DNA from: Bacillota bacterium
GTDB lineage: Bacteria; Bacillota; Sulfobacillia; JAIMAT01
Direction: 5' to 3'
NCBI GenBank assembly: GCA_029961055.1
Contig: JASBVM010000031.1
Location: 1 to 44,047 of the forward strand
Length of the DNA: 44,047 nucleotides
This document shows positions 1,058 to 15,635 of this stretch, one piece after another (position 1 is the first letter of the stretch; each line of letters starts with the position of its first letter). A model generated the notes under the pieces. It ran no database searches. It was not told the origin of the DNA and saw only the letters and a program-made list of their open reading frames with translations. The position numbers and the translations under genes are program-made.

Positions 1058-2134
1058 CTACCCCTCCCCCGAGAGGAGGCGGCGGAGCGCTTCCTCCTCG
1101 ATGCGGCCGGCCAGCACGTCGCGCCCCTCCACCCGCACCACCGGGATCTCCAGGAAGTAGCGCTCGTGCAGCGCGGGATCCTCCTCGATGTTCCGCACCT
1201 CCAGCGCCAGCAGCCGCCCGCGCCGCTCCAGCTCGCGCGCCAGCCGGCCGAGGAGCGCCTCCGCCTCCTCGCAGAGATGGCAGCCCGGCCTGCCGAGGAG
1301 CGTCACGCGCATCGTCCCCCGCATCCCGGGCTCCCCTGCGTCCCGCGGTCTCGAGCCTCCTCCCCTCGCCCGCGTCGCGGCGCGCCGCCCCGAGACCAGG
1401 TTGGCCCCGACCAGCATCTCCTCGTCTTCCAGCACCCGGTCCACCGGACCTGCCGCCACCAGCCGGTGGTCCTCCCCCAGGACCGCGGCCCGGCCCGCCA
1501 GGAAGCGCGCGCTCTCCAGATCGTGCGTCGCCACCACCAGCGTCTTCCCGGTGGCCGCCAGCGTCCGCAGCAGGTCGATCATGGCGTCCTGGCTGCGCGG
1601 GTCCAGGGCGGTCAGCGGCTCGTCCAGGAGGAGCACCTCCGGGTTGGAGGCGAGCACGGCGGCCAGCGCCACGCGCTTCTTCTCGCCGCCGCTCAGGCGG
1701 AAGGGCGGGCGGTCGGCCAGCTCCTCCAGCTCCAGCAGGCGGAGCACGTCGGCGACGCGCCGCTCGACCTCGGACGCGGGGAGACCCAGCTGGACCGGCC
1801 CGTAGGCCACCTCCTCGCGGACGGTGGCGTTGAAGAGCTGGCTGTCCACGTTCTGGAAGAGGACGCCGACGCGGGCCCGGAAGGCCGGTCCGAAGGCGAC
1901 GTCGTCGAGGAGCGCCGGCGTCAGCTCCCGCCCCCAGGCCAGCACCCGCCCGCCCGACGGGAAGTCGAGTCCGGCCAGGAGCCGGAGGAGCGTCGACTTC
2001 CCCGAGCCGTTGGCCCCCAGGAGCGCCAGTCCCTCGCCGCGCCGGATCTCGAGCGTCACGCCGTCCAGCCCCGGGAAGCCGCCCGGATACCGGAACTCCA
2101 CCGCCTCGGCGCGAAAGATCGCGCTCTCCGTCAT
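1058..2134 (-). CDS. cbiO: CbiO-type nickel/cobalt ECF ATPase fused to a glutaredoxin-like domain
   Basis: The first ~250 residues are a CbiO/EcfA ATPase that powers the CbiM-CbiQ metal importer encoded just upstream. From the ATG at 2134, Walker A (GANGSGKST) is near residue 40, the signature (LSGGEKKR) near 147, Walker B (VLLLDEP) near 167 and the H-loop (THD) near 203. After an Arg/Gly-rich linker, residues ~275-358 form a glutaredoxin-like (DUF836-type) domain: MRVTLLGRPGCHLCEEAE with a CHLC motif, then an IPVV cis-Pro-like segment. No stop separates the parts. An in-frame ATG at 1324, preceded by AGGGGAG, could allow the redox domain to be made alone. The start at 2134 has a GGGAGGA site; a GTG at 2167 overlapping the cbiQ stop (GTGA) is an alternative with poor spacing. 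The fusion is unusual for this family. Confidence 0.88.
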   Translation of the reverse strand: MTESAIFRAEAVEFRYPGGFPGLDGVTLEIRRGEGLALLGANGSGKSTLLRLLAGLDFPSGGRVLAWGRELTPALLDDVAFGPAFRARVGVLFQNVDSQLFNATVREEVAYGPVQLGLPASEVERRVADVLRLLELEELADRPPFRLSGGEKKRVALAAVLASNPEVLLLDEPLTALDPRSQDAMIDLLRTLAATGKTLVVATHDLESARFLAGRAAVLGEDHRLVAAGPVDRVLEDEEMLVGANLVSGRRAATRARGGGSRPRDAGEPGMRGTMRVTLLGRPGCHLCEEAEALLGRLARELERRGRLLALEVRNIEEDPALHERYFLEIPVVRVEGRDVLAGRIEEEALRRLLSGEG

Positions 2135-2163: not shown

Positions 2164-3072
2164 TCACCCTTTTCGCAGCCCGTACCCGCGCGCCTTCATC
2201 GCCAGGTAGACCTCCTCCGCCACCTGCTGCGACCGGAGGAGGAGGACCGTCGCCGCCGCGGCCACGAAGCGCTGGCCCGCCCGGGCCGAGCGGGTGGCGC
2301 CGGCCACGCCTGCCGGTGGCGGCGCGACGGGCCGCGCCCGCCGCGCCAGGAAGAGCTCCTCCACCAGCCCCGCCAGCACCACCAGGTAGCGCTGGCTCAT
2401 GGTGAGGAGCGTCACCAGGAGCCCGGGCACGCGGAGCGCCCGCAGCCCCCGCCCCAGCTCCGACCAGCGCGTGGTCCAGCTGAGGAGGAGCGCGAAGGCG
2501 AGCGAGTCGCCCACGCGCAGGAGGAGCAGGAGCGCCCCCTCCACGCCCGGGCGGGTCAGCGCCAGCGCTCCGGGCAGCGCGACGGGCCCCAGCCGGAGCG
2601 GCGCCGCCCCCGCGGCGCCCCAGAGCCGGAGGAGCGGCTCGCCCGGCGTCACCCAGCTGGTGGCGGCCGGCAGCACCGTGACGGCCGTCAGGAGCGGGAG
2701 GCCCAGCCAGACGCGGCGCAGGAAGCGCCCCACCGCCAGCCCCGAGCTGGCCGCCAGCACCGCCGCCAGCAGCTGGAGCGCCAGCAGCGCCGGCACCTGG
2801 TGCACGAGCCCCACGAGCAGGACCAGGGCGAAGAGGCCGACCAGCTTCCAGCGGGCGTCCACGCGGGCCAGCCAGCCGCCCCCCAGCTCGCCGCCCGCAG
2901 GCCCGCCGCCGAGCATGTCGACGAGGAAGGCGCGCGCCGCCTCCACCGTCTTCTCCGCGAAGCGCTGCCCGCCCATGCGGCGTCCCGCCACGGGCGGCGC
3001 TTCCTCGGGCGCGGCGGCGCCCCGGAGCCAGTGCGGAAGGGCAGGCGGCAGGCCGGTCGCCGGGTCGCTCAT
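2164..3072 (-). CDS. cbiQ: CbiQ-type transmembrane (EcfT) component of the nickel/cobalt ECF importer
   Basis: This 302-residue membrane protein couples the CbiO ATPase to the CbiM substrate-binding subunit. The first ~85 residues are soluble; several hydrophobic helices follow. The C-terminus carries the family coupling motif (LAMKARGY), which contacts the ATPase. The ATG at 3072 overlaps the TGA of cbiM (ATGA), so the two genes are translationally coupled. The cbiO ATG lies 29 bases past its stop. The N-terminal soluble stretch is longer than in typical CbiQ, but it lies in the same frame with no better start inside. The substrate is probably Ni2+, because nikR heads the operon. Confidence 0.88.
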   Translation of the reverse strand: MSDPATGLPPALPHWLRGAAAPEEAPPVAGRRMGGQRFAEKTVEAARAFLVDMLGGGPAGGELGGGWLARVDARWKLVGLFALVLLVGLVHQVPALLALQLLAAVLAASSGLAVGRFLRRVWLGLPLLTAVTVLPAATSWVTPGEPLLRLWGAAGAAPLRLGPVALPGALALTRPGVEGALLLLLRVGDSLAFALLLSWTTRWSELGRGLRALRVPGLLVTLLTMSQRYLVVLAGLVEELFLARRARPVAPPPAGVAGATRSARAGQRFVAAAATVLLLRSQQVAEEVYLAMKARGYGLRKG

Positions 3073-4082
3073 CGCGCCGTCCCGGACCCCGGGTGCGCCA
3101 CCCGCCTCCTGCGGCCGGCGAGGAGCAGGCGGACGGCCAGCGCCACCAGGACGATGCCCAGGAGGACCACCAGCCAGGTGCCGGCCACCTCCCCCCAGCC
3201 GTGGCCGAAGCCGGGCAGCGCGTAATCGGGCAGCAGGCCGTGCCACGCGGAGGCCGCCTGGCGGATCCCCTCGGGAACGTAACCCAGCTGCGCCTTCAGC
3301 TCCTCCGCCCCCCACTCGCCCCAGGCGGTGCCGTGGGCGAGGAGGCCGAGCGGCGTCGACAGGACCAGGAGCCCGAGCCCCGCCCAGGCCCAGCGGGGCA
3401 GGCGCGCGCCCGTCGCCGCGTGCGGCTCGTAGAGCCCGGCGCCGCTCCGCACCAGGAAGCCGACCACCAGCCCGGTGACCACCGCCTCGACCGGCCCGGC
3501 CACCAGGAGGTGCGCCAGGAGCATGGCCGGGACGGCGACCTGGAGCGGGTAGGGCGCATAGAGCGGGGTACCGCTGGCGGAACGGAAGAGGAGCGGCTGG
3601 ACTCCCAGCTCCACCCCCGTCGCCAGCGCCGCCAGGTTGATGCCGACGAAGGCGCCCAGCGCCGCCGCCCAGGGACGCCGCCCGGGTCGGCGGGCGCTGA
3701 GGAGCCGGTAGACCGCGTAGCCTGCCAGCGGCTCGAGCACCGCCATGTTGAAGACGTTGGCCCCCAGGGCGAGGAGGCCGCCGTCGCCGAAGAAGACCGC
3801 CTGCACGATGAGGACGACGGTCACCGCCAGCACGGCCGCCCAGGGTCCCAGCACCACCGCCAGGAGCGCGCCGCCCACCGCGTGGGCGGTGGTCCCGTCC
3901 GGCACCGGCACGTTCAGCATCATCAGCGCGAAGGCGAAGGCCGAGCCCAGGGCGATGGCCGGGACGTGGCGATCGCCGCTCTCCCGGCGGACGCGGGAGA
4001 CGGCGTGCGCCACGAAGGGCGCCGCCGCGGCGCCCATCACCGCATACGTGGAGGGGCTCATGTACCCGTCGGGGATGTGCAT
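3069..4082 (-). CDS. cbiM: CbiM/NikM-type substrate-specific subunit of the nickel/cobalt importer, with NikN-like C-terminus
   Basis: The protein begins MHIPDGYMS, the hallmark of CbiM/NikM, in which the amino terminus and His2 help coordinate Ni2+ or Co2+. Residues ~1-230 contain the multi-helix CbiM core, including MMLNVPVPDGTTAHAVGG. The last ~110 residues hold two further helices around a periplasmic loop (GLLPDYALPGFG), which matches the NikN part of fused NikMN proteins, so a separate CbiN is not needed. It lies 43 bases after nikR and overlaps cbiQ by 4 bases. An AAGGAAG site precedes the ATG. The adjacent NikR regulator argues for nickel rather than cobalt; this is inference. Confidence 0.92.
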   Translation of the reverse strand: MHIPDGYMSPSTYAVMGAAAAPFVAHAVSRVRRESGDRHVPAIALGSAFAFALMMLNVPVPDGTTAHAVGGALLAVVLGPWAAVLAVTVVLIVQAVFFGDGGLLALGANVFNMAVLEPLAGYAVYRLLSARRPGRRPWAAALGAFVGINLAALATGVELGVQPLLFRSASGTPLYAPYPLQVAVPAMLLAHLLVAGPVEAVVTGLVVGFLVRSGAGLYEPHAATGARLPRWAWAGLGLLVLSTPLGLLAHGTAWGEWGAEELKAQLGYVPEGIRQAASAWHGLLPDYALPGFGHGWGEVAGTWLVVLLGIVLVALAVRLLLAGRRRRVAHPGSGTAR

Positions 4083-4125: not shown

Positions 4126-4551
4126 TCACGGCATGTCGTCGCCCACCGCCGTCACCAGCACCCGCCCGTGGTGGACTCCGCGCACCGTCCGCAACTGCTC
4201 GGCCACCTCCCGCACCTCGGCGGCCGGTCCCCGGAGGATGACCACCTCCAGGCAGTTGGCGGCGTCCAGGTGGACGTGGCTGGTGCTGACCACGAGCCGG
4301 GCGTGGTGGTGCTGGATCTCGGTGAGCTCGTCGGAGAGGCCGCTCTTCCTGTGGTCGTAGAGGAGGATGGCCGCCCCGGCCACCTCGCCCGACTCGTTGC
4401 GCCAGGCTTCTTCCACCAGGCGGTCGCGGACCAGGTCGCGGAGGGCCGCCGAGCGGTTGGCGTAGCCGTGGTTCCGGACGTAGGCGTCGAAACGGCCGAG
4501 AAGCGCCGCCTCCATCGAGACGCCGAAACGCTGCACGGGTCCTGTGTCCAA
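4126..4551 (-). CDS. nikR: NikR nickel-responsive ribbon-helix-helix repressor
   Basis: This 141-residue protein has an N-terminal ribbon-helix-helix DNA-binding domain (VQRFGVSMEAALLGRFDAY, then NRSAALRDLVRD) and a C-terminal ACT-like nickel-sensing domain. The high-affinity Ni ligands of E. coli NikR (His76, His87, His89, Cys95) are matched in spacing by His81, His92, His94 and Cys100. The start is a TTG at 4551, chosen because a GGGAGGT site sits 7 bases before it and the family homology begins a few residues later; an upstream ATG (4612) lies inside the palindrome/promoter region and is unlikely. It is the first gene of nikR-cbiM-cbiQ-cbiO and probably represses its own operon when nickel is plentiful. 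Confidence 0.93.
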   Translation of the reverse strand: MDTGPVQRFGVSMEAALLGRFDAYVRNHGYANRSAALRDLVRDRLVEEAWRNESGEVAGAAILLYDHRKSGLSDELTEIQHHHARLVVSTSHVHLDAANCLEVVILRGPAAEVREVAEQLRTVRGVHHGRVLVTAVGDDMP

Positions 4552-4601
4552 TCGGCGGACCTCCCTGCGGGCGCGAGGGGCCCTCCCGCAGGCCCTTCGC
4601 G

Positions 4602-4787: not shown

Positions 4788-5405
4788 TCAGGGCACACTG
4801 CCAGCCGCCACGGGCACGAGCGCGGCAGCCAACCCCATCAGAAAGCCGACCACCAGCTGGGCGGGCGTGTGCCGCCGGAGGGCGAGGCGGCTCGCAGCCA
4901 CGGCCACGGCCAACGCGGTGCCCAGCGCGACCGCCGCCAGGCGCGGGACCGCGCCGACCCCGGCCGGCATCCACGCCGCCACGCCGGTCATCAGCCCGAT
5001 CGCGCCGGTGTGGAGGCTCACCTTCCAGGCCAGCGTCAGGAGGGCCACCGCCGCCAGCCACGCCGCGACCGCCTCCAGGCTGGCCGCCAGGAGCGAGCCC
5101 GGCGCCCAGCGGCGGGCGATCAGCCAGCCCAGGGCCGAGCCCGCCCAGCTGACGGGCAGGTAGGAGAAGCGCTCGGTCCGGCTGACCAGCTCGGAGCCAC
5201 CCCACCAGCCGCGGCGCTTCCCGGCGAGGAGGGCGGCCACCGGCAGCGCGACCGAGGCGACCCAGGCCGCAGCCGCCACGCGGGCCTCCCCGGGGCGAAG
5301 GACGGCCACCAGGAGAAGCCAGTAGCTCAACACCGCGTAAGGCTGGAAGAGCACCGAGAGGAAGCGTGCCCAGAGCGGACCGCCGGACGGATGCAGGACC
5401 GCCAC
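4788..5405 (-). CDS. PAP2-type (phosphatidic acid phosphatase-like) membrane protein
   Basis: A ~205-residue polytopic membrane protein with about six hydrophobic helices. Near the C-terminus it carries RRHTPAQLVVGFLMG, which resembles the third motif of the PAP2/undecaprenyl-pyrophosphate phosphatase superfamily (H-TP-Q-vlaG). The first His-containing motif is also plausible (KVSLHTGAIGLMTG, a SGH-like S-H-T/A pattern). These enzymes remove phosphate from lipid phosphates, but several members without complete motifs have other roles. The start is uncertain: the GTG at 5405 is used because the hydrophobic region begins right after it, but the GGAAGGAAG element abuts it too closely, and a CTG slightly downstream would be better spaced. 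It is not clearly in an operon with its neighbours. Confidence 0.65.
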   Translation of the reverse strand: MAVLHPSGGPLWARFLSVLFQPYAVLSYWLLLVAVLRPGEARVAAAAWVASVALPVAALLAGKRRGWWGGSELVSRTERFSYLPVSWAGSALGWLIARRWAPGSLLAASLEAVAAWLAAVALLTLAWKVSLHTGAIGLMTGVAAWMPAGVGAVPRLAAVALGTALAVAVAASRLALRRHTPAQLVVGFLMGLAAALVPVAAGSVP

Positions 5406-5550: not shown

Positions 5551-6486
5551 TCACGCTGCCCGGTGGTCCACCGCATTCGGGTCCAGGGCGTCGCGCAACC
5601 CGTCACCCACGAGGTTAAAGGAGAGGACGGTCAGGAAGATCATCAGCCCCGGGAAGAGAGCCAGCCAGGGAGCCGACGTGACGTACGTCTGGGCGTCCGA
5701 GAGCATGGAGCCCCAGCTGGCCGTCGGCGGTTGAATCCCCAGGCCGAGCCAGCTCATCACCGACTCGATGATGATCGACTGGCCAACCGCCAGCGTGGCG
5801 TTGACCAGGAGCGAGGAGAGCGCGTTGGGCAGGATGTGGCGGAGGATGATCCGGCCGGTGGGCGCTCCCAGCGCCCGCGCGCCCTCCACGAACTCCCGTT
5901 GTTTAAGGGAGAGGAACTCCGCTCGCAGGATGCGAGCCGGATACATCCACTGCGTCAGGCCGATGATGACGATCAGGCCGGGGGTGGAGGGCGTGATCAG
6001 GACGGAGAGCACCAGCAGGACGAAGAGGTAGGGGATCGAGAGCGCCGCGTCGGTCACCCGCATCAGCAGGTTGTCCACGAGGCCCCCGGCGAAGCCCGCC
6101 ACCGCGCCCACGGTCCCCCCCACCAGGATCGCCACCACCATGGCGAAGAAGCCGACCGCCAGCGAGATCCTCCCCCCGTAGATCACCCGTGAGAGGAGGT
6201 CGCGCCCCAGGTCGTCGGTGCCCATCCAGTGCTTCGGACTGGGCGGCACCAGCATGGCGCCCAGGTCCTGGGCGTCCGGCTTGTACGGGGCCACCCAGGG
6301 GGCGAGGACGGCGGCCAGCACCAGGAGGAGCAGGATCAGCCCGCCCGTGAGGGCCAGGCGGTGGCGGACGAAACGCCGCCCCACCTGCAGCCAGAGGGGC
6401 CGCCTCGATACGCTTCCGAGGGAAGGCGCCGTCGCCCCGACGGCCCCGGGTACTCCCGCCGGCTCCCGGATCGGAGTCTGCGCCAT
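5551..6486 (-). CDS. dppC: DppC/OppC-type peptide ABC transporter permease
   Basis: This 311-residue inner-membrane permease has an N-terminal OppC-N segment (HRLALTGGLILLLLVLAAVLAP, then a YKPDAQDL extracytoplasmic part with the family GTDDLGRDLLSR box). The BPD_transp_1 domain follows, with the EAA loop that docks the ATPase (EFVEGARALGAPTGRIILRH). About six helices are visible. A strong AAGGAGGGG site precedes the ATG at 6486. It is the last gene of an operon with the substrate-binding lipoprotein and the DppB partner. No DppD/DppF ATPases follow, so ATP hydrolysis must come from subunits encoded elsewhere. The exact substrate (di-, oligopeptide or other) cannot be told. Confidence 0.93.
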   Translation of the reverse strand: MAQTPIREPAGVPGAVGATAPSLGSVSRRPLWLQVGRRFVRHRLALTGGLILLLLVLAAVLAPWVAPYKPDAQDLGAMLVPPSPKHWMGTDDLGRDLLSRVIYGGRISLAVGFFAMVVAILVGGTVGAVAGFAGGLVDNLLMRVTDAALSIPYLFVLLVLSVLITPSTPGLIVIIGLTQWMYPARILRAEFLSLKQREFVEGARALGAPTGRIILRHILPNALSSLLVNATLAVGQSIIIESVMSWLGLGIQPPTASWGSMLSDAQTYVTSAPWLALFPGLMIFLTVLSFNLVGDGLRDALDPNAVDHRAA

Positions 6487-6561
6487 GTTTCCCCTCCTTC
6501 GCGGCCAAGATGGTTCCAGGTCGGAGCGCGCTGCCCCGGCCGGCGCAGGCCGTACGAGGCG

Positions 6562-7515
6562 CTACTCGTACTGGATCCTGGGGTCCAGCAACCCGTAGAG
6601 AACGTCCGCCAGCAGGTTGAAGACGACCACCAGGAAGGAGACGAAGACCAGGATCCCCATCAGTACCGGATAATCGCGCTTGGTCAGCGAGACGTAAAAG
6701 AGGTTGCCCATGCCGGGCCAGGCGAAGACGGTCTCCGTGATCAGGGCGCCGGAGAAGAGCGTCGGCATGTCCATGGCCAGGACCGTCACCAGCGGGATGA
6801 GCGCGTTCCGCAGCGCATGGCGCAGGACCACCGTCGCCTCCGCCAACCCCTTCGCCCTGGCCGTACGCACGAAGTCCTTGCCCAGCGTCTCCAGCAGGCT
6901 GGAGCGGAGATACCGGCTCCAGCTGGCGACGGAGTAGAGCGCCAGCACGGTCATGGGCAGGATCAGGTGGCGGAGGAGATCCGTCCACGAGAAGCCCATG
7001 CCCGGCGTCAGCCAGCCCTGGGCGGGCAGCCAGCCGAGGCGAACGGCGAAGAAAATGACCAGCATGATCCCGAACCAGAATGTCGGCATGGCGATGCCGA
7101 AATAGGCGAAAATCGTGAGGAGATAGTCGATCCAGGAGTACTTCCTCACGGCACCGACCACCCCGATGGGCACCGCCAGGATCACCGACAGCAGGAAGGA
7201 CGGCAGCATCAGCGCCAGCGTGGCCGGGATCCGTTCCAGAATCCGCCCCAGCACGGGCTGACCGTTGACGAAAGAGGTGCCCAGATTCCCCTTCACGAGC
7301 TCGCCGAGCCAGGAGAGGTACTGGACATAGAGCGGCCGATCGAGGCCGAAGTAGTGCTTGAGGCGCGCCAGCCCTTCCGCCGTCAGGCCGGGGCTGTTCA
7401 TGTAGGCGGCCAGCGGCCCGCCCGGCATCAGGTGCATCACGAAGAACGTGATCAGGCTGACGATGAAGAGGACCGGCACCGCCTGGATCAGCCGCCGAGC
7501 CAGATAGCGCCCCAA
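6562..7515 (-). CDS. dppB: DppB/OppB-type peptide ABC transporter permease
   Basis: This 317-residue permease starts with the characteristic helix (RYLARRLIQAVPVLFIVSLITFF) and MPGGPLAAY region. It has the large periplasmic loop with YFGLDRPLYVQYLSWL and GNLGTSF, then the transmembrane domain with EAA loop (KDFVRTARAKGLAEATVVLRHALRNA, split here for length as the KDFVRTARAKG and RHALRNALIP parts). The start is a TTG at 7515 with an AGGAGG site 7 bases upstream. It pairs with DppC, 75 bases downstream, to form the translocation pore. A hairpin separates it from the upstream binding-protein gene. Confidence 0.92.
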   Translation of the reverse strand: MGRYLARRLIQAVPVLFIVSLITFFVMHLMPGGPLAAYMNSPGLTAEGLARLKHYFGLDRPLYVQYLSWLGELVKGNLGTSFVNGQPVLGRILERIPATLALMLPSFLLSVILAVPIGVVGAVRKYSWIDYLLTIFAYFGIAMPTFWFGIMLVIFFAVRLGWLPAQGWLTPGMGFSWTDLLRHLILPMTVLALYSVASWSRYLRSSLLETLGKDFVRTARAKGLAEATVVLRHALRNALIPLVTVLAMDMPTLFSGALITETVFAWPGMGNLFYVSLTKRDYPVLMGILVFVSFLVVVFNLLADVLYGLLDPRIQYE

Positions 7516-7578
7516 TTCTCCACCTCCTCCCTGACCGGTTGGTGGAAAGCCCCCGCGTCAGCACGCCGCAGCGCGGCG

Positions 7579-7603
7579 GCCGGGCGGCGCGAGGCCGCCC
7601 GGC
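7579..7603 (-). terminator. intra-operon hairpin between binding protein and permease genes
   Basis: A perfect 10-bp GC stem (GCCGGGCGGC / GCCGCCCGGC) with a 5-base loop lies between the binding-protein stop (7628) and the dppB start (7515). Hairpins here often stabilise or attenuate the message so that more binding protein than permease is made. No T-run follows, so full termination is unlikely. Confidence 0.4.
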
Positions 7604-7627
7604 GTCGTCGCGCCCCCGTTGTTCGGG

Positions 7628-9331
7628 CTACTTCGTCTTCAATGCCCACTCCCACGAGTTCCAGGTGTCAGGAAGGACCGGACCGGGCTTGTAGCCGTCG
7701 ATCCCGCGCGAAACGTCGATCTCCATGGGCGAGTAGTAGAAGAGCGCGGGCGGATCCTCGTAGGCCAGGATCCGTTCGAGCTGCGCGTAGATCGCCTTCC
7801 TCTGCGCCTGATCCGGCGTCCGCAGCTGCATGGCCAGGAGCTGGTCCACCTTGGCGTTGCTGTACTTGCCGAAGTTGCTCGGCGCACCTGTGGCGTACTG
7901 CACCTGCGTGCCGAAGTACGGATCGTAGGCGTTGGTGTACATATACTCGCCGATGTCGAACTGGCCCTTGGGCAGGATGGTGCCGAAGTAGGTGGTGGCG
8001 TCGTAGTTCCGAATCTGCAGGTTGACGCCGAGCTGCTTCCACTGTGCCTGGGCGATCTGCTCCGTCTGCGCCCGCCATGGGTTCTTGGCCGTGGTCGAGT
8101 ATGTCAGCTTCAACTGCTGGCCGTTCTTGTACCGGTAGCCGTCCGCACCCTTCTTCCAGCCGGCCTCGTCCAGGAGCTGGTTGGCCTTGGCGGGATCGTA
8201 GGGAAGCGGCTTCAAGCCCGGGTCATAAGCCCAGGATCCGGGCGGCTGGTCGCCTGCCACGGTCGTACCCATCCCCTTCCAGACGTCCTTGACCAGCACG
8301 TCCCGGTCAAGCCCATACTCCAGCGCCTGGCGGACGCGCACGTCCTGCAGGATCGGGTTGCGCAGGTTGAGCACGGCGCTCTCGTAGGCCAGCTGAGGAT
8401 GGACCACCACCTGGGCGCCGGGGATCGCCTTCAGCTGGGCGAGCTGCGTGATCGGCGCGAAGTAGTAGACGTTGACCTCTCCGGACTGCATGGCGGCCAA
8501 GAGGCTGTTCTGGTCGGGGATGATCTTGAAGACGATCTCCTTGGCCTTGGGCGCGCCCCGCCAGAAGTCGGGGTTGGCCACCACGGTGATGTGATCGCCC
8601 GACTTCCACTCCTTGAACTTGAAGGGGCCCAGGGTGACGGTGGGGGCCTTGTTGTAGGCCGCGGTCATGTACTGGTCGGGAGAGAGATCCTTGAACACGT
8701 GATAGGGCAGGATGAGCGGCGCCACCCAGGCGGAGGCGAAGGGCGCGAACGGCTCCTTCAGCCGGAACTGGATGGTGTGGTCGTCAATCATCTTGCTCGA
8801 GGCGATGTGGTCGAATCCCGCCGTCGTCCGGGGCGCCACCTTGGGGTTCATGATGAAGCGCCAGGTGAAATCCACGTCCTGGGCCGTGAAAGGCTGGCCG
8901 TCCGACCACTTGGCGTCGCGCAGGTGGAAGGTGTAGGTCAGGCCGTCCTTGGAGATGCCACCGTTCTGGACGGTGGGCACCTCCGTGGCCAGGTCCGGGA
9001 TCAGCCGGCCGTGGTCGTCGACGGTGAAGAGGCCTGGGAACATCGTCAGCTCCACCAGCGTCGAGTAGGTCATGTTGGCGCCGATGGTCGGGTTGAGCAG
9101 ATCCGGCTCCTCGTAGAGCCCGTCCACGATGGTACCCGCACCCTGGGCGGCTCCTCCCGCTCCGCCGGCCGGGCTGCCGCCCGTCGCGGGCGGGCTGCCC
9201 CCACCGCAGGCGGCGGTGGCCAGCGCCAGCGCCACCAGGAGCACCATCCCGCCCAGAGCGCCTCGCAGCCCTCCCCGGCGCGGCTGACCGTCCTTTCGCC
9301 CGTTTCCACGCAGCTGCACGTCCCCCACCAC
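7628..9331 (-). CDS. peptide-type ABC transporter substrate-binding lipoprotein (SBP family 5)
   Basis: This 567-residue extracytoplasmic receptor belongs to the DppA/OppA (SBP_bac_5) family. A signal peptide (VLLVALALATAAC) ends in a lipobox whose Cys would be lipidated, followed by a Gly/Ser/Pro-rich flexible tether. Family landmarks follow: EPDLLNPTIG, DLATEVP, the FHLRDAKWSDGQPFTAQDV motif (the strongest signature), PNQSLLAAM-type and DVRVRQALEYGLDRDV blocks, and a C-terminal TWNSWEWALK. Several in-frame GTG codons crowd the 5' end (9331, 9328, 9319); all lie before the signal peptide, so the mature protein is unaffected. It is the first gene of the minus-strand operon with dppB and dppC. 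An inverted repeat sits just before the start. Confidence 0.93.
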   Translation of the reverse strand: MVGDVQLRGNGRKDGQPRRGGLRGALGGMVLLVALALATAACGGGSPPATGGSPAGGAGGAAQGAGTIVDGLYEEPDLLNPTIGANMTYSTLVELTMFPGLFTVDDHGRLIPDLATEVPTVQNGGISKDGLTYTFHLRDAKWSDGQPFTAQDVDFTWRFIMNPKVAPRTTAGFDHIASSKMIDDHTIQFRLKEPFAPFASAWVAPLILPYHVFKDLSPDQYMTAAYNKAPTVTLGPFKFKEWKSGDHITVVANPDFWRGAPKAKEIVFKIIPDQNSLLAAMQSGEVNVYYFAPITQLAQLKAIPGAQVVVHPQLAYESAVLNLRNPILQDVRVRQALEYGLDRDVLVKDVWKGMGTTVAGDQPPGSWAYDPGLKPLPYDPAKANQLLDEAGWKKGADGYRYKNGQQLKLTYSTTAKNPWRAQTEQIAQAQWKQLGVNLQIRNYDATTYFGTILPKGQFDIGEYMYTNAYDPYFGTQVQYATGAPSNFGKYSNAKVDQLLAMQLRTPDQAQRKAIYAQLERILAYEDPPALFYYSPMEIDVSRGIDGYKPGPVLPDTWNSWEWALKTK

Positions 9332-9338
9332 CTTCCGA

Positions 9339-9373
9339 ATTCTGGAACGACGGCCTGCCGCAAGTTCCGGAAT
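9339..9373 (-). repeat. inverted repeat in the leader of the peptide-binding-protein gene
   Basis: Arms ATTCTGGAAC (9339-9348) and GTTCCGGAAT (9364-9373) pair at nine of ten positions across a 15-base spacer, ending 8 bases before the GTG at 9331. It could be a regulator operator or an mRNA hairpin near the ribosome binding site. No regulator is encoded beside it. The rest of the divergent gap up to the rib promoter shows nothing clear. Confidence 0.45.
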
Positions 9374-9460
9374 GTAGCGGCTCCAATACCACGCGGACCG
9401 GTCGATGTCCTCCTTGGTGCCGGCGATACGGGTTCCGCCGGTTTGCCGCCGAACCCACCG

Positions 9461-9489
9461 TTGCCATCCCCGGCCCCTTCGACTAGGAT
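9461..9489 (+). promoter_or_regulatory. sigma-A-like promoter of the rib operon
   Basis: TTGCCA (9461-9466), a 17-base spacer and TAGGAT (9484-9489) match the -35 and -10 consensus at five and four of six positions. The predicted start near 9496 lies just upstream of the FMN aptamer, as expected for a riboswitch-controlled transcript. Confidence 0.6.
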
Positions 9490-9511
9490 GACGACAAACC
9501 TACTCAGTACC

Positions 9512-9666
9512 TCCTTCGGGGCAGGGTGAGGGCGAAGGCCCAATTCCCGACCGGCGGTGAGGCGTCCGAGGCCCCTCGGGGCCGGGGCGACGAGCCCGCG
9601 ACCCGCGCGAGCGGTGGAGTCCGGTTCAATCCGGCGCCGACGGTAGAGTCCGGATGGGAGAAGGAG
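9512..9666 (+). promoter_or_regulatory. FMN riboswitch (RFN element)
   Basis: The conserved RFN blocks appear in order: CTTCGGGGCAGGGTG (from 9514), ATTCCCGACCGGCGGTGA (9543-9560), AGCCCGCG (9593-9600), then TCCGGTTCAATCCGG and GCCGACGGTAGAGTCCGGAT with GGGAGAAGGA closing the aptamer. These are the FMN-binding junction sequences of the class. One variable arm is enlarged by a GC hairpin (around 9570-9590). The aptamer precedes ribD-ribE-ribBA-ribH, so high FMN would switch riboflavin synthesis off. A strong hairpin ~50 bases downstream is the probable expression platform. Confidence 0.96.
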
Positions 9667-9713
9667 GGCTCCTGAGGCGTGCATCCGCACGTCCGGGTCC
9701 CTGTGCTGGAACC

Positions 9714-9746
9714 GTGCCCCGGCAGGAAACCTCCTGGCCGGGGCAC
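9714..9746 (+). terminator. hairpin downstream of the FMN aptamer, probable expression platform
   Basis: GTGCCCCGGC (9714-9723) and GCCGGGGCAC (9737-9746) form a perfect 10-bp stem, with AGG/CCT able to pair inside the loop. It lies between the aptamer and the ribD ribosome binding site (~9837). The following bases (GCTCCTT) are only weakly T-rich, so the mechanism could be termination with help from Rho or a structural switch. Confidence 0.5.
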
Positions 9747-9848
9747 GCTCCTTCACGAGAGCGGGCGGGCTGCGTCTCGCCCTCTCCCCCGCCGGCTGTC
9801 CCTCTGTGGCCTTGCTCTCCCCTCCCCGAAGCCCGAGGAGGTGGCACC

Positions 9849-11030
9849 GTGGTCGAAAGCCCCGGCGACGAAGCCGGGCGCCGCTGGATGCGCCGGGCGC
9901 TCGAGCTCGCCGAGCGCGGGCGCGGGAGGACCCGGCCCAACCCGATGGTGGGGGCGGTTCTCGTCCGCGACGGCGAGGTGGTGGGCGAGGGCTTCCACGA
10001 GCGGGCCGGGGCGCCGCACGCGGAGGTCCGGGCGCTCGGGGCGGCGGGTGACCGGGCGCGGGGCTCCACGCTCTACGTGACGCTGGAGCCCTGCCGCCAT
10101 TGGGGCCGGACGCCTCCGTGCACGCGGGCGCTGATCCGTGCCGGCGTGCGGCGGGTGGTCGCGGCCATGGAAGACCCCGATCCCCGCGTGGCCGGGCAGG
10201 GCCTGGCCGAGCTCCGCGCAGCCGGGGTCGAGGTGGCCGTGGGGCTGATGGGGGAGGAGGCCCGCCGGCTGAACGAGGCCTATCTCACCCACCGGCGGCT
10301 CGGGCGGCCCTTCGTGACGATGAAGTACGCCATGACGCTGGACGGGCGGATCGCGACCGCCGCCCGGGACAGCCGCTGGGTGAGCGGCGAGGCCGCCCGG
10401 CGGCGCGTCCACGAGCTGCGCGCCCAGGTGGACCTGGTGGCGGTGGGCGTCGAGACCGTCCTGGCCGACGACCCGCTCCTCACCGTCCGCCTGGCGGAGG
10501 AGGGGCCGGAGGGCAGGCCGAACCCCATCCGCCTCGTCCTGGACAGCCGGGCGCGCACCCCGCTCGAAAGCCGGCTCCTCGGGACGGCGGCGGAGGCGCC
10601 CGTCTGGATCGCCACCACCCGCCACGCGCCCGCCGAGCGGCTCGAGGCGCTCCGCGCCGCGGGCGCCGAGATCCTGCTTCTACCGGACCGCGACGGGCGC
10701 GTCGACCTCCGGGCGCTCTTCGCCGAGCTGGGGCGGCGGGGGCTTCTCCACGTGCTCCTGGAGGGGGGCGCCACGATCCACGGCGCCGCCCTGGCCGCGC
10801 GCGTCGTCGACCGCCTGATGGTCTTCGTCGCCCCTCGCATCGCGGGAGGAAGCGCGGCGCTCGGACCGGTGGGCGATCCGGGCGTCCGGCGGATGGCGGA
10901 GGCGCTCCGCCTCCGTCCCGTCGCCTGCGAGCCGGTGGGCGAGGACTGGCTGATCGTCGCCGAGCCCTTGGGAGAGCCGCCGGGAGACGGCACCGCGGAA
11001 GGGGGAGAGCCTGTATGTTCACAGGACTGA
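9849..11030 (+). CDS. ribD: RibD bifunctional pyrimidine deaminase/reductase of riboflavin synthesis
   Basis: This 393-residue enzyme deaminates 2,5-diamino-6-ribosylamino-pyrimidinone 5'-phosphate and then reduces the ribosyl side chain with NADPH. The N-terminal deaminase has the zinc motif: HAE (His57, Glu59) and PCRHWGRTPPC (Cys82, Cys91). The reductase domain starts near 150 (RPFVTMKYAMTLDGRIAT, SRWVSG) and continues through VGVETVLADDPLLTVR and LLEGGATIHGA. Length is normal. The GTG at 9849 has an AGGAGG site 7 bases upstream and fits the family N-terminus. It is the first gene of the riboswitch-controlled operon and overlaps ribE by 16 bases. Confidence 0.96.
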   Translation: MVESPGDEAGRRWMRRALELAERGRGRTRPNPMVGAVLVRDGEVVGEGFHERAGAPHAEVRALGAAGDRARGSTLYVTLEPCRHWGRTPPCTRALIRAGVRRVVAAMEDPDPRVAGQGLAELRAAGVEVAVGLMGEEARRLNEAYLTHRRLGRPFVTMKYAMTLDGRIATAARDSRWVSGEAARRRVHELRAQVDLVAVGVETVLADDPLLTVRLAEEGPEGRPNPIRLVLDSRARTPLESRLLGTAAEAPVWIATTRHAPAERLEALRAAGAEILLLPDRDGRVDLRALFAELGRRGLLHVLLEGGATIHGAALAARVVDRLMVFVAPRIAGGSAALGPVGDPGVRRMAEALRLRPVACEPVGEDWLIVAEPLGEPPGDGTAEGGEPVCSQD

Positions 11031-11614
11031 TCGAGGAGCTGGGCCGCTGCCGCGCGGTGGAGGTCGGGCCGGGCGGCGGCTTCCTGGGGGTCGAGGCGCC
11101 CGGCTTCGGGGCGCACCCGGGCGAGAGCGTGGCCGTCAACGGGGTCTGTCTCACGGTGCTCGAGGCCGAGCGGGGTCGCCTCGCCTTCGAGGTGATGCCG
11201 GAGACGCTCCGCGTGACGACGCTGGGGCGCCTCCGCCCGGGCGCGCCGGTCAACCTCGAGCGGGCGCTCCGGCTCGGCGACCGGCTGGGCGGGCACCTCG
11301 TCCAGGGGCACGTCGACGGCGTGGGGGAGGTGGTGGCGCGCGAGCGCCAGGGCGATGCCTGGTGGCTCCGCATCCGCGCGCCGGAGGAGCTCCGCCCCTT
11401 CCTCGCGCGGAAGGGCTCCGTCGCCGTCGACGGCGTCAGCCTGACCGTCGCCGCCCTGGAGGAAGAAGTCTTCGCCGTCTCCCTCACCCCGACCACCGCC
11501 CGGAGGACCACGCTGGGCGAGCGCCGCCCGCGCGATCCGGTCAACCTGGAGGTCGACCTGCTGGCGCGCTATCTGGCGCGCCTCCTCGCGGGCGCGGAGG
11601 TGGTCCGGCCGTGA
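11015..11614 (+). CDS. ribE: Riboflavin synthase alpha chain (RibE)
   Basis: This 199-residue enzyme dismutates two 6,7-dimethyl-8-ribityllumazine molecules into riboflavin and the pyrimidine precursor. It begins with the invariant MFTGLIEELG and consists of two lumazine-binding repeats, each with its hallmark (VAVNGVCLTV and VAVDGVSLTV) and a matching hinge block (GGHLVQGHVDGVG in the first). The ATG at 11015 lies inside the ribD 3' end after GGGGGAG, and the TGA overlaps the ribBA GTG (GTGA), so translation is coupled on both sides. Many species call this gene ribC or ribE. Confidence 0.96.
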   Translation: MFTGLIEELGRCRAVEVGPGGGFLGVEAPGFGAHPGESVAVNGVCLTVLEAERGRLAFEVMPETLRVTTLGRLRPGAPVNLERALRLGDRLGGHLVQGHVDGVGEVVARERQGDAWWLRIRAPEELRPFLARKGSVAVDGVSLTVAALEEEVFAVSLTPTTARRTTLGERRPRDPVNLEVDLLARYLARLLAGAEVVRP

Positions 11615-12831
11615 GCGTCGGCGAGAAGCTCCGGCAGCCGGCGTACGACCCGGTGGAGAGCGCGCTGGCCGCGCTCCGCCGGGGCGACCCGGTGATCGTC
11701 GTCGACGAGGCGGAACGCGAGAACGAGGGCGACCTGGTCCTGGCCGCCGAGGCCGCCAGCGCCGAGAAAGTCGCCTTCCTGCTCCGCCACGGGAGCGGCC
11801 TGATCTGCCTGCCCCTGACGGAGGAGCGTTGCGCCGAGCTCCGCCTGCCGCTGATGGTCGACCCGCCCGGGGACCCCATGGGCACCGCCTTCACCCTCTC
11901 GGTCGACGCCCGCGAGGGCGTCCGGACCGGCATCTCGGCCGAGGAGCGCGCCCGCACCGTCCGCACGGTGGTCGATCCCGCCACCCGCCCCGAGGATCTG
12001 GTCCGGCCCGGCCACGTCTTCCCGCTCCGCGCCCGTGCGGGCGGCGTGCTCACCCGCCGCGGGCACACGGAGTCGGCGGTCGACCTCACGCGCCTCGCCG
12101 GGCTCCGGCCCGCCGGCGTGATCAGCGAGATCCTCCGCCCCGACGGCCGCGTGGCGCGCGAACCCGAGCTCTTCCGCCTGGCCCGCCGGTTCGCCCTGCC
12201 GATCGTGCGCGTGGCGGACATCGTCCGCTACCGCCTCCGCCACGAGCGCGCCGTGCGGGAGGCGGGCTCGGCGGCGCTTCCTACGGCGCACGGCGAGTTC
12301 CGGGTCTACGCCTTCCGGGAGCTCTTCGCGCCCCGGACCCACCTGGCGCTGGTCCGCGGCCGCGTGGACGACGGGAGGCCGGTCCTCGCCCGCCTCCAAA
12401 GCGAGTGCCTGACCGGCGAGGCGCTCGGCTCGCTCCGCTGCGACTGCGGCCCCCAGCTGGATGCGGCGATGGAGGCGGTGGCGCGCGAGGGGCGTGGCCT
12501 CCTCCTCTATCTGCGCCAGGAGGGGCGCGGCATCGGCCTGGCCGAGAAGATCCGCGCCTACGAACTCCAGGATCAGGGGCTGGACACCGTGGAGGCCAAC
12601 CTGGCGCTCGGCCATCCCGCCGACGCCCGCGACTACGGCGTCGCCGCCCAGATCCTCGGGGCGCTGGGCGTGCGGGCGGTCCGCCTGATGACCAACAACC
12701 CGGCCAAGGTGGAGGGGCTGCGCGCCTACGGGGTGGAGGTGGTCGAGCGGTTGCCGCTCCGGGTGCCGGCCTCGCCCTGGGCCGAAGCCTACCTGGAGGC
12801 GAAGCGGCGGAAGCTGGGGCACTGGCTCTGA
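11611..12831 (+). CDS. ribBA: RibBA bifunctional 3,4-DHBP synthase / GTP cyclohydrolase II
   Basis: This 406-residue fusion supplies both entry substrates of the pathway. Residues ~13-212 are the RibB domain (ribulose 5-phosphate to 3,4-dihydroxy-2-butanone 4-phosphate), with DEAERENEGD (32-41) and the RRGHTESAVDL (149-159) active-site blocks. Residues ~225-406 are GTP cyclohydrolase II, with zinc ligands Cys266, Cys277 and Cys279 in CLTGEALGSLRCDC and the RQEGRGIGL motif (302-310). The GTG at 11611 overlaps the ribE stop. Domain order and length are normal for Bacillota. A 238-base gap with a palindrome separates it from ribH. Confidence 0.96.
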   Translation: MSVGEKLRQPAYDPVESALAALRRGDPVIVVDEAERENEGDLVLAAEAASAEKVAFLLRHGSGLICLPLTEERCAELRLPLMVDPPGDPMGTAFTLSVDAREGVRTGISAEERARTVRTVVDPATRPEDLVRPGHVFPLRARAGGVLTRRGHTESAVDLTRLAGLRPAGVISEILRPDGRVAREPELFRLARRFALPIVRVADIVRYRLRHERAVREAGSAALPTAHGEFRVYAFRELFAPRTHLALVRGRVDDGRPVLARLQSECLTGEALGSLRCDCGPQLDAAMEAVAREGRGLLLYLRQEGRGIGLAEKIRAYELQDQGLDTVEANLALGHPADARDYGVAAQILGALGVRAVRLMTNNPAKVEGLRAYGVEVVERLPLRVPASPWAEAYLEAKRRKLGHWL

Positions 12832-12914
12832 GCGCTGGGGGGCGGGGCGGCTGGCGGTTGGCGGGGGCGGAGCGGAGGCCAGGGGGGTGTCCCCGGTGGC
12901 AGGACACGAACTGC

Positions 12915-12944
12915 TATCATGATGGCTCTGGTGCCATCATGATA
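12915..12944. repeat. perfect 12-bp inverted repeat between ribBA and ribH
   Basis: TATCATGATGGC and GCCATCATGATA form a perfect 12-bp inverted repeat across TCTGGT. It stands out as an AT-richer island in a GC-rich gap and contains nested TCATGA palindromes. It could be an operator, an intra-operon RNA hairpin or a terminator stem; a short TCGTTT follows but no T-run. The rest of the 12832-13069 gap shows no gene. Confidence 0.6.
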
Positions 12945-13069
12945 TCGTTTGCGGTCCCCCTTCGTATGGAACCCTCATGGCGCCCGCGACGCCGTCCCCG
13001 CGCACCGGCCGGCGCCCCCGACGTCGTCCCCGCGCGCCAGCGGCTGCAAACCAGAGAAGGAGGAACGCC

Positions 13070-13567
13070 ATGGCGACCTTTGAAGGAAGCCTGACCGGCG
13101 ACGGCCTGCGCCTCGCCGCGGTCGTCTCCCGCTTCAACGATCTGGTCACCGCCCGGCTCCTGGCCGGCGCCGAGGCGGAGCTCCGCCGGCACGGCCTGCC
13201 CGAGGAAGCGCTGGACGTCGCCTGGGTTCCGGGCGCCTTCGAGTTGCCGCTCGTCGCCCGGCGCCTGGCCGGCTCCGGCCGCTACGACGCCGTCATCGCC
13301 CTGGGCGCCGTCCTGCGCGGCCAGACCCCCCACTTCGACTTCGTCGCGGGCGGCGCCGCCCAGGGGCTCCTGCAGGCCTCCCTCTCCACCGGCGTCCCCG
13401 TGCTCTTCGGGGTGATCACGGCGGAGACGGTGGAGGAGGCGCTGGACCGCGCCGGCCTCCGGGCCGGCAACCGCGGCGCCGAGGCGGCCCGCGCGGCGCT
13501 GGAGATGGCCAACCTGATGCGGACGCTGCCGCCCGACCCGCGAGGCGCGGCGGCTGCCGGGGGGTGA
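13070..13567 (+). CDS. ribH: 6,7-dimethyl-8-ribityllumazine synthase (RibH)
   Basis: This 165-residue enzyme condenses the pyrimidine intermediate with 3,4-dihydroxy-2-butanone 4-phosphate to give the lumazine used by RibE; the family assembles into pentamers or 60-mer capsids. Landmarks: VVSRFNDLVT near the start, WVPGAFELPLVARRL, VIALGAVLRGQTPHFDFV with the catalytic-type His, and FGVITAETVEEALDRAG followed by NRGAEAA. An AAGGAGG site precedes the ATG. The C-terminal tail is slightly longer than usual and ends in Ala/Gly. It completes the riboflavin operon but has a long gap before it, so it may also have its own promoter. Confidence 0.96.
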   Translation: MATFEGSLTGDGLRLAAVVSRFNDLVTARLLAGAEAELRRHGLPEEALDVAWVPGAFELPLVARRLAGSGRYDAVIALGAVLRGQTPHFDFVAGGAAQGLLQASLSTGVPVLFGVITAETVEEALDRAGLRAGNRGAEAARAALEMANLMRTLPPDPRGAAAAGG

Positions 13568-13654
13568 ACGCGGCCGCGACGACCGCTTGCACCGCTTCCG
13601 ACCGCGGCGCCGCCTTGCCGGGCCACGTCGAGCTGCGGGGCGCTGGCGCCGGGC

Positions 13655-14185
13655 GTGGAGGTGCGGAAGGCCGTGTGCCTTCCTCTGGCGCAGGCGGCTG
13701 GGATGGAGGCGGATCGGCGCGCGGGCGCCGTGCTGCCGGGGACGCGCTTCCTGCTGCTCGACCTGCCCTTCTCCCACGACCTGAAGGCGCCGGCGCGGCG
13801 CATCGGCGACCTGCGGCGCGGCGGCTGGCAGCCGTTCCTCTTCGCTCCGGAGCGGCACCCGGAGGTCCGTCGGCAGGCGGAGCTGAGCCGCTACCTGCGC
13901 CAGGCCGGCGGTTGGCTGGCACTGGACGTCAACAGCCTGCTGGGCCGGAACGGAAACGGGGCGCGGGTGGCCGCCCTCCGCCTGGTCCGGCTGGGCTGGT
14001 ACTCGTTCTGCGCGCCCTTCCTCGGCCACCCCGAGGGGCCGGTGGCGCCGCAGGAGGTCGCCGAGATCCTCCGCCGCGCCGAGCGCCGGCCATCCTGGCA
14101 GCCCGGCGAAGTGGAGACGCTGGCGACAGGGCGGCTGGCGCGGCTCTTCGGATTCACGGGGTCGGGCAGGTCGGAGGAACCGTAG
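13655..14185 (+). pseudogene. degenerate C-terminal part of a CpsB/CapC-type PHP phosphatase
   Basis: The 176-residue frame aligns by eye with the second half of CpsB/CapC (YwqE) tyrosine phosphatases, from GVEVRKAV (family GxEVYL) through the GTRFLLLDLP strand, the helix region and the C-terminal AEILRRAE segment. The family N-terminus with its metal-binding HCHILPGxDDG is missing; the in-frame sequence back to the ribH stop (same frame) has no resemblance to it. The LAHPER motif reads FAPERHPE, so its metal-binding His is gone, and the SDAH motif reads APFLGH. It is either a dead remnant or a repurposed fold. No capsule or exopolysaccharide genes are nearby. The start is uncertain. Confidence 0.5.
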
Positions 14186-14346
14186 CCTGCAGTCCTGCCC
14201 GCGCGTGGCTGCACAGGGTCGACGCCGTCCCGCGGCACGCGGCGCGAGGCCTGAACCGCACCGGCGTTGGACGGGTTCCCTCTCTTTTCCTCTTGACCCA
14301 CGCTCCCCCACAGGTTCAAGCCTACAGCCCTACAGCTGTTGACCGC

Positions 14347-14376
14347 TTGACGAAAAGATCTACCACATGATAGCAA
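14347..14376 (+). promoter_or_regulatory. weak candidate promoter in the 330-base gap before the ADH gene
   Basis: The gap 14186-14518 contains no gene and is less GC-rich than its surroundings. TTGACG (14347-14352) with an 18-base spacer to TAGCAA (14371-14376) is the best promoter-like pair, with a good -35 but weak -10. It lies ~145 bases before the GTG at 14519, leaving a long leader in which I see no known riboswitch. Confidence 0.3.
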
Positions 14377-14518
14377 TAACCTGACGAATGTGCGCGGTCG
14401 TCGCCAATCGCCCTCCACCTCGTACGGAGCGGTGACCTCCTCACGGCACGGCTTCTGGTTGTAGGCAACAGATTGTCGCACTTCACCGCTCCCACTCAAA
14501 AGCAGGGAGGTGCAGCCT

Positions 14519-15613
14519 GTGAAAGCCGCTGTTCTGAGGGAACCCAACACATCGCTGCAAATCGAGGACCTCGACTTGGCTGATCCGGGTCCGGGCGAGG
14601 TCCGGGTCCGCATGGTGGCCACAGGCGTCTGTCACACAGACGCCAGTGCCATCTCCGGTGCGATTCCCGTTCCCATGCCCATCGTGCTGGGGCACGAGGG
14701 CGCCGGAGTCGTCGATGCGGTGGGCCCCGGCGTGACCACTCTCCACGTGGGGGATCACGTGGTCCTCTCGGTCATGCCGTCCTGCGGCAAGTGTGCAAGC
14801 TGTGTCACCGGACAGCCGTGGCTCTGCCAGGTAGCGGCTCCCGTCCTGTTTGCAGGGAAGATGCTCGACGGGACATACAGGCTGAGGCAGGACGGCAGCG
14901 CTGTCAATCACTTCTTCGCGCAGTCCTCCTTTGCCGAATATGCGGTCGTGACCGAGCTGGGAGCCGCCAAAGTCCGTGACGACGCCCCTCTCGACGTTGT
15001 TGCACCGCTGGCCTGTGGAGCATCTACCGGGATCGGCGCGGTCCTGAACGCCGCGCATGTCGAACCCGGTGCCAGTGTGGCCGTGTTCGGGTGCGGTGGG
15101 GTGGGCTTGAGCGGCATCATGGCCGCACGCCTTGCCGGCGCCGATCCGATCATTGCCGTCGACGTTCTGCCGAACAAGCTCGAGATGGCAGCCTCATTCG
15201 GCGCTACTCACCTGGTCAATGCGGCTCAGGCCGACCCTGTCCAGCAGATACGCGATCTGACCCATGGCTTCGGCGTGGACTATGCCTTCGAGTTCATAGG
15301 CCGCAAGGATACCATGGAGCAAGTGATCGAGGCCATCCACCCCGGCGGGCACGCCTACATCGTCGGCGGCGCGCCTGTAGGAACGCGCTTCAGCGCGGAT
15401 GCGTTGGGCTTTCTTTTTGGAAAGAACGTACACGGTGTGGTGGGCGGGTTCACGCGGCCGACGGTCGACATACCGCGGTTCGTCAACCTGTACATGAATG
15501 GGAAGCTTCCTCTGGATCGTCTCGTCAGCCGCAGGTATTCGCTCAGCGAGATCAACGACGCGTTCGAAGCCATGCACCACGGTGAAGTCGCACGCAGTGT
15601 CATCGTGTTCTAG
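14519..15613 (+). CDS. Zinc-dependent alcohol dehydrogenase (MDR family)
   Basis: This 364-residue medium-chain dehydrogenase likely interconverts an alcohol and its aldehyde. Catalytic zinc ligands are Cys38 (GVCHTD), His59 (GHEGAG) and Cys166 (LACGAST). The structural zinc site is the four-Cys loop Cys89, Cys92, Cys95 and Cys103. The Rossmann motif is GCGGVG (191-196), and Asp215 (IAVDV) at the end of the next strand indicates NAD rather than NADP. The GTG at 14519 is chosen because an AGGGAGG site is 8 bases upstream and MKAAVL is the usual family start. It sits 22 bases before the AOR gene, so its aldehyde product or substrate is probably that of AOR. The exact alcohol is unknown. Confidence 0.93.
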   Translation: MKAAVLREPNTSLQIEDLDLADPGPGEVRVRMVATGVCHTDASAISGAIPVPMPIVLGHEGAGVVDAVGPGVTTLHVGDHVVLSVMPSCGKCASCVTGQPWLCQVAAPVLFAGKMLDGTYRLRQDGSAVNHFFAQSSFAEYAVVTELGAAKVRDDAPLDVVAPLACGASTGIGAVLNAAHVEPGASVAVFGCGGVGLSGIMAARLAGADPIIAVDVLPNKLEMAASFGATHLVNAAQADPVQQIRDLTHGFGVDYAFEFIGRKDTMEQVIEAIHPGGHAYIVGGAPVGTRFSADALGFLFGKNVHGVVGGFTRPTVDIPRFVNLYMNGKLPLDRLVSRRYSLSEINDAFEAMHHGEVARSVIVF

Positions 15614-15635
15614 AATCTCAAGGAGGTCTCGAGGC

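Follow-up and report, generated by a model that had tools for sequence, protein, structure and literature searches.

Does the ATPase of a nickel importer that runs on, in a single reading frame, into a glutaredoxin-like domain represent a new redox switch or an accident of gene rearrangement? The question is raised by a 44,047-nucleotide stretch of DNA from an uncultured Bacillota bacterium (contig JASBVM010000031.1; hereafter the window), in which a minus-strand frame of 358 amino acids with zero internal stops encodes both parts. A sequence-only reading had described one unbroken frame joining a nickel-type CbiO to a CHLC-containing DUF836-type domain, and had proposed redox control of nickel uptake, thiol chemistry near the metal channel, or simple gene fusion. 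Our analysis of the stop-free frame, in which both the ABC_tran and PF05768 Pfam matches are in-frame, bears out this description and the naming of the two domains (Table 1).

As NikR, CbiM, and CbiQ are encoded upstream on the same strand, the fused frame closes a NikR-linked CbiMQO/NikM(N)QO operon. Among prokaryotic nickel and cobalt importers, Cbi/NikMNQO systems are the most common, with M, Q, and O as their universal parts (PMC2667541). The nikR gene is adjacent upstream, and the substrate may be nickel rather than cobalt. The ATPase part resembles the CbiO/NikO proteins of these ECF importers (PDB 5x3x, 5x40, 3gfo) both in its position as the last gene after nikR-cbiM-cbiQ and in being a complete ATPase. 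Pfam places ABC_tran at residues 23-174 (E 1.2e-31), the best solved relative is 5x3x/5x40, a 'Cobalt ABC transporter ATP-binding protein' (E 4e-51), and alignment with 36 relatives revealed that the Walker A (GANGSGKST), signature (LSGGEKKRVA), Walker B (LLLDEP), and H-loop (ATHD) motifs are all intact. CbiO is encoded alongside CbiM and CbiQ in the same order as in class relatives. An end soon after the ATPase domain is usual for CbiO, albeit not strictly defining, and neighbouring CbiO proteins end near residue 250-265; the fused protein instead runs approximately 105 residues further, into the redoxin domain.

The C-terminal part matches the Glrx-like/DUF836 family at residues 276-354 with E 1.9e-17 and 63.8 bits, against a gathering cut-off of 26. 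The two domains were aligned and folded separately. All 33 aligned DUF836 proteins share the C-x-L-C motif and the Pro of IPVV, and the redoxin domain modelled alone has a mean pLDDT of 92.7, with Foldseek returning thioredoxins, 1ttz, mycoredoxin-3 (8pr6), and 1wjk. Its likeness to PF05768 proteins (PDB 1ttz, 1wjk, 2fgx; by fold also 8pr6, from Corynebacterium glutamicum) thus lies in CxLC, in IPVV with its invariant Pro, and in the thioredoxin fold, whereas these proteins usually stand alone at about 80-110 amino acids and here the domain is C-terminal to an ABC ATPase. The DR_0057-type thioredoxin-like proteins of Deinococcus, whose CxLC has been likened to that of DUF836, have the GCHLCE motif in common with it; they are stand-alone proteins, and their function is also uncharacterised (PMC8945050). 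Literature searches for ABC-ATPase/glutaredoxin fusions and for mycoredoxin-3 yielded nothing useful.

Table 1. Features of the fused gene and its operon in the window
Feature	Position	Strand	Basis
Fused ORF: CbiO/NikO ATPase, linker, and DUF836	1058..2134	-	ORF reading and Pfam
CbiO/NikO-type ECF ATPase, residues 1-250	1385..2134	-	Pfam, solved relatives, alignment
Linker, residues 251-274 (~25 residues)	1313..1384	-	Past the end of homologous CbiO proteins
DUF836/Glrx-like domain PF05768, residues 276-354, thioredoxin fold	1073..1309	-	Pfam, model, Foldseek
CHLC redox motif, C285 and C288	1271..1282	-	Alignment of DUF836 proteins
AGGGGAG, ribosome-binding-site-like, 6 nt 5' of internal ATG	1331..1337	-	Sequence
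Internal in-frame ATG, residue 271	1322..1324	-	Sequence
TGA in +1 frame, overlapping the ATG at 1312 by a few bases	1303..1305	-	Sequence
CbiQ/NikQ permease, no cysteine	2164..3069	-	PF02361
CbiM/NikM with C-terminal PDGLE (N-like) domain, no cysteine	3069..4082	-	PF01891, PF13190
NikR nickel repressor, first gene of the run	4126..4587	-	PF08753 NikR_C, E 1.3e-28

The linker differs from both of its flanks. GC content by codon position is 0.77/0.86/0.82 in the linker (residues 251-272), compared with 0.80/0.46/0.96 in the ATPase and 0.85/0.44/0.97 in the redoxin, such that the GC periodicity typical of coding sequence is missing from the linker in the fused frame. As this profile is unlike that of either domain, the linker resembles either once non-coding sequence or a tether of low complexity, although its high GC at the second position could also reflect a true R/G/P/A-rich flexible linker. 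It is predicted to be disordered, with AlphaFold assigning pLDDT values below 50 to residues 259-272 and above 90 to nearly all of residues 11-250. The absence of a stop is barely beyond chance and is by itself weak evidence: at the 72.5% GC of the window, 80% of 22-codon stretches drawn at random contain no stop, a figure that is 68% for shuffled sequence, and among ORFs of at least 150 amino acids 29% would run on for at least 100 codons after loss of their stop.

The architecture was not found elsewhere. In five clusters from the same class, cbiM, cbiQ, and cbiO occur in the same order, with nikR also seen in three, and CbiO stops within about 2-20 residues of position 247-250. The CbiO C-termini of the closest class clusters (ANLAEP, ANLIEPPGAP, TNLAEPRGSEP, ANLISARDRRGAGARE, and ANLISARGRRSRD, each followed by the stop) fall at the point where the linker starts, and no DUF836 gene was detected in the fetched stretches of these cbiMQO clusters. 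Among 80 CbiO loci from public genomes, none has DUF836 in frame or in the fetched flank. A DUF836-like match is present in 28 of 154 genomes of the class, and only that of the window is fused to an ATPase; across 398 genomes of the phylum, the open frames that hold the other strong PF05768 matches (about 59 bits or more) are 80-172 amino acids long. The domain also occurs in 136 of 396 genomes of the actinobacterial phylum (that of L012, an Acidimicrobiales record), where long open frames around DUF836 genes were considered as candidate fusions and rejected, as none of the 33 such loci examined contains an ABC ATPase in frame. As neither the CbiO loci nor the class nor the samples of two phyla (~800 genomes) yielded a further member, a conserved fusion family was rejected, and the earlier suggestion that such an extension of CbiO is rare holds in all of these sets, where the architecture is unique. 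The sequence-only reading had further proposed that separate genes in close relatives, with a stop codon in the linker, would imply a local mutation or a sequence error. This was found in part: in relatives cbiO stops at the linker point and DUF836 is separate elsewhere, but separate cbiO and DUF836 genes lying next to each other were seen in no relative.

Comparison within the genus, for which the sample is three genomes, places the junction in a region of altered gene order. In one of these genomes (G002) the DUF836 gene stands alone and has 83% amino acid identity to the window domain, with 88% nucleotide identity over 244 bases. This nucleotide homology starts at GTG 1306, which is codon 277 of the domain-bearing frame and the start of the G002 gene itself, ends with the domain, and is lost upstream of GTG 1306. 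In G002 the DUF836 gene lies ~0.8 kb from a block of pyruvate carboxylase and universal stress protein (usp) genes that matches window positions 22513-18197 at 83%; the sole gene in between is phospholipase-D-like, a name given by eye from the sequence. In the window the same block and DUF836 are separated by 17 kb that include the nickel operon, and no cbiM match was found in G002 or in the third genome, G001. The cbiO-DUF836 border is thus the border of stretches with differing neighbourhoods in two species, which accounts for the fusion with no need to invoke a function, and gene order identifies the junction as a lineage-specific rearrangement boundary. The 17-kb difference from G002 may represent either gain here or loss in G002.

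Several further features of the region were observed. The part of the 17 kb at window positions 5551-17486, missing there in G002, encodes an OppBC and SBP_bac_5 oligopeptide-type ABC transporter, a riboflavin biosynthesis cluster, an alcohol dehydrogenase, and an aldehyde:ferredoxin oxidoreductase. In G001 (C133; L212/L222), a PAP2-like gene with 79% identity to window positions 4974-5386 lies ~1.5 kb from pyruvate carboxylase, 15 kb nearer to it than in the window, a further sign of regional rearrangement. In all three genus members a contig ends no more than about 1 kb from the fused gene or its neighbour: the window contig begins inside a gene (20-543) sharing 93% identity with the final 0.5 kb of G001:C101, G002:C15 ends ~50 bases past DUF836, and the G001 contigs break at places relevant to the ancestral gene order. 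On the plus strand, a Phd/YefM antitoxin gene at 790-1032 ends in ATGA, as though a toxin gene should come next, while the frame from ATG 1029 closes after ~43 codons within antisense DUF836. It looks like an orphan antitoxin gene and may mark a second breakpoint next to the fusion.

We consider it likely that the fusion is real but passive, an ordinary cbiO/nikO and an ordinary DUF836 gene having been joined by rearrangement and being in frame by accident. With separate genes in relatives and an altered neighbourhood, simple gene fusion is the best fit among the three original proposals. An unlikely alternative is that a sequence or assembly error has joined two separate overlapping genes through one missing or extra base in a linker G-run. 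cbiO would then end at the TGA at 1305-1303 and DUF836 would start at ATG 1312 or 1324; as this +1-frame TGA overlaps ATG 1312, a normal overlap for genes of an operon, an error of one base in the G-rich linker would be enough to mask an ordinary pair of overlapping genes. The G-runs AGGGGA and CGGGGGA, the lack of coding periodicity in the fused frame, and the nearby contig ends in all three genus members agree with such an error. However, the +1-frame cbiO tail would still exceed the tails of relatives, and single-base indels at runs of G4-G5 are uncommon in short-read assemblies, which we count against this explanation.

A functional fusion, in which the redoxin controls uptake by thiol-disulfide exchange or passes on nickel as a thiol ligand at the cytosolic exit, appears very improbable. 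The frame is single and open, CHLC and the ATPase are both intact, and comparison with the free G002 gene (one pair only) gave dN 0.10 and dS 0.25, a ratio that shows the DUF836 part to be under purifying selection, as expected if it kept an activity of its own. This selection is common to the stand-alone copy and thus carries no information on the fusion. CbiM, CbiQ, and the ATPase part contain zero cysteines, leaving C285 and C288 as the only thiols in the predicted transporter, the linker is predicted to be disordered, and the fusion is conserved in no relative. The lack of cysteines is not unusual in itself, as 11 of the 36 aligned CbiO relatives are also cysteine-free, but it means that thiol switching by the protein's own domain is not possible in the usual sense. 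Redox control via disulfide exchange within the transporter was rejected for lack of partner cysteines, and the proposed redox control of nickel uptake is unsupported, as is thiol chemistry near the metal channel, where the CHLC pair would be the sole thiol. There is only a slight chance that this is a recently born ECF ATPase with a tethered thiol oxidoreductase conducting redox chemistry at the cytosolic mouth of the nickel channel, for example if CHLC bound nickel transiently or the domain acted on cysteines of a protein that receives nickel.

The internal start signals allow another reading. AGGGGAG does precede the in-frame ATG 1324, as had been noted earlier, and ATG 1312 and GTG 1306 are further in-frame alternatives; a free DUF836 protein could be made from either ATG. 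That the gene is a deliberate dual-product one, yielding full-length ATPase and free DUF836 in a fixed ratio through internal initiation, is nevertheless extremely unlikely. The site 6 nt upstream of ATG 1324, the second ATG, and the start of free-gene homology at codon 277 are compatible with it, but identical signals are expected as leftovers of a formerly separate gene, and the proposal finds no comparative support.

Returning to a passive fusion, a rearrangement in this lineage would have set a nikR-linked cbiO/nikO and a stand-alone DUF836 gene head to tail, the new boundary by accident keeping the reading frame with no stop. If translated as it stands, the frame would yield an ordinary ECF ATPase to which a predicted CxxC thiol oxidoreductase, folding independently, is attached by a flexible tether of ~25 residues. 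Both activities would presumably be retained, and free DUF836 would probably also be made from ATG 1324 or 1312. The DUF836 part would most likely keep its former cellular job and not regulate nickel uptake.

Taken together, our analysis indicates that an accidental gene rearrangement, and not a new redox switch, is the probable explanation of the fusion. As the unfused redoxin gene, the usual end of CbiO, and the altered neighbourhood are all visible in relatives, the locus offers a clean example of a domain fusion near its birth, and cautions that, in GC-rich genomes, an unbroken frame across two domains says little about whether they are functionally coupled. Should the cell indeed produce and use the fused protein, no other ECF importer ATPase in the sets searched would have such a built-in redox domain.
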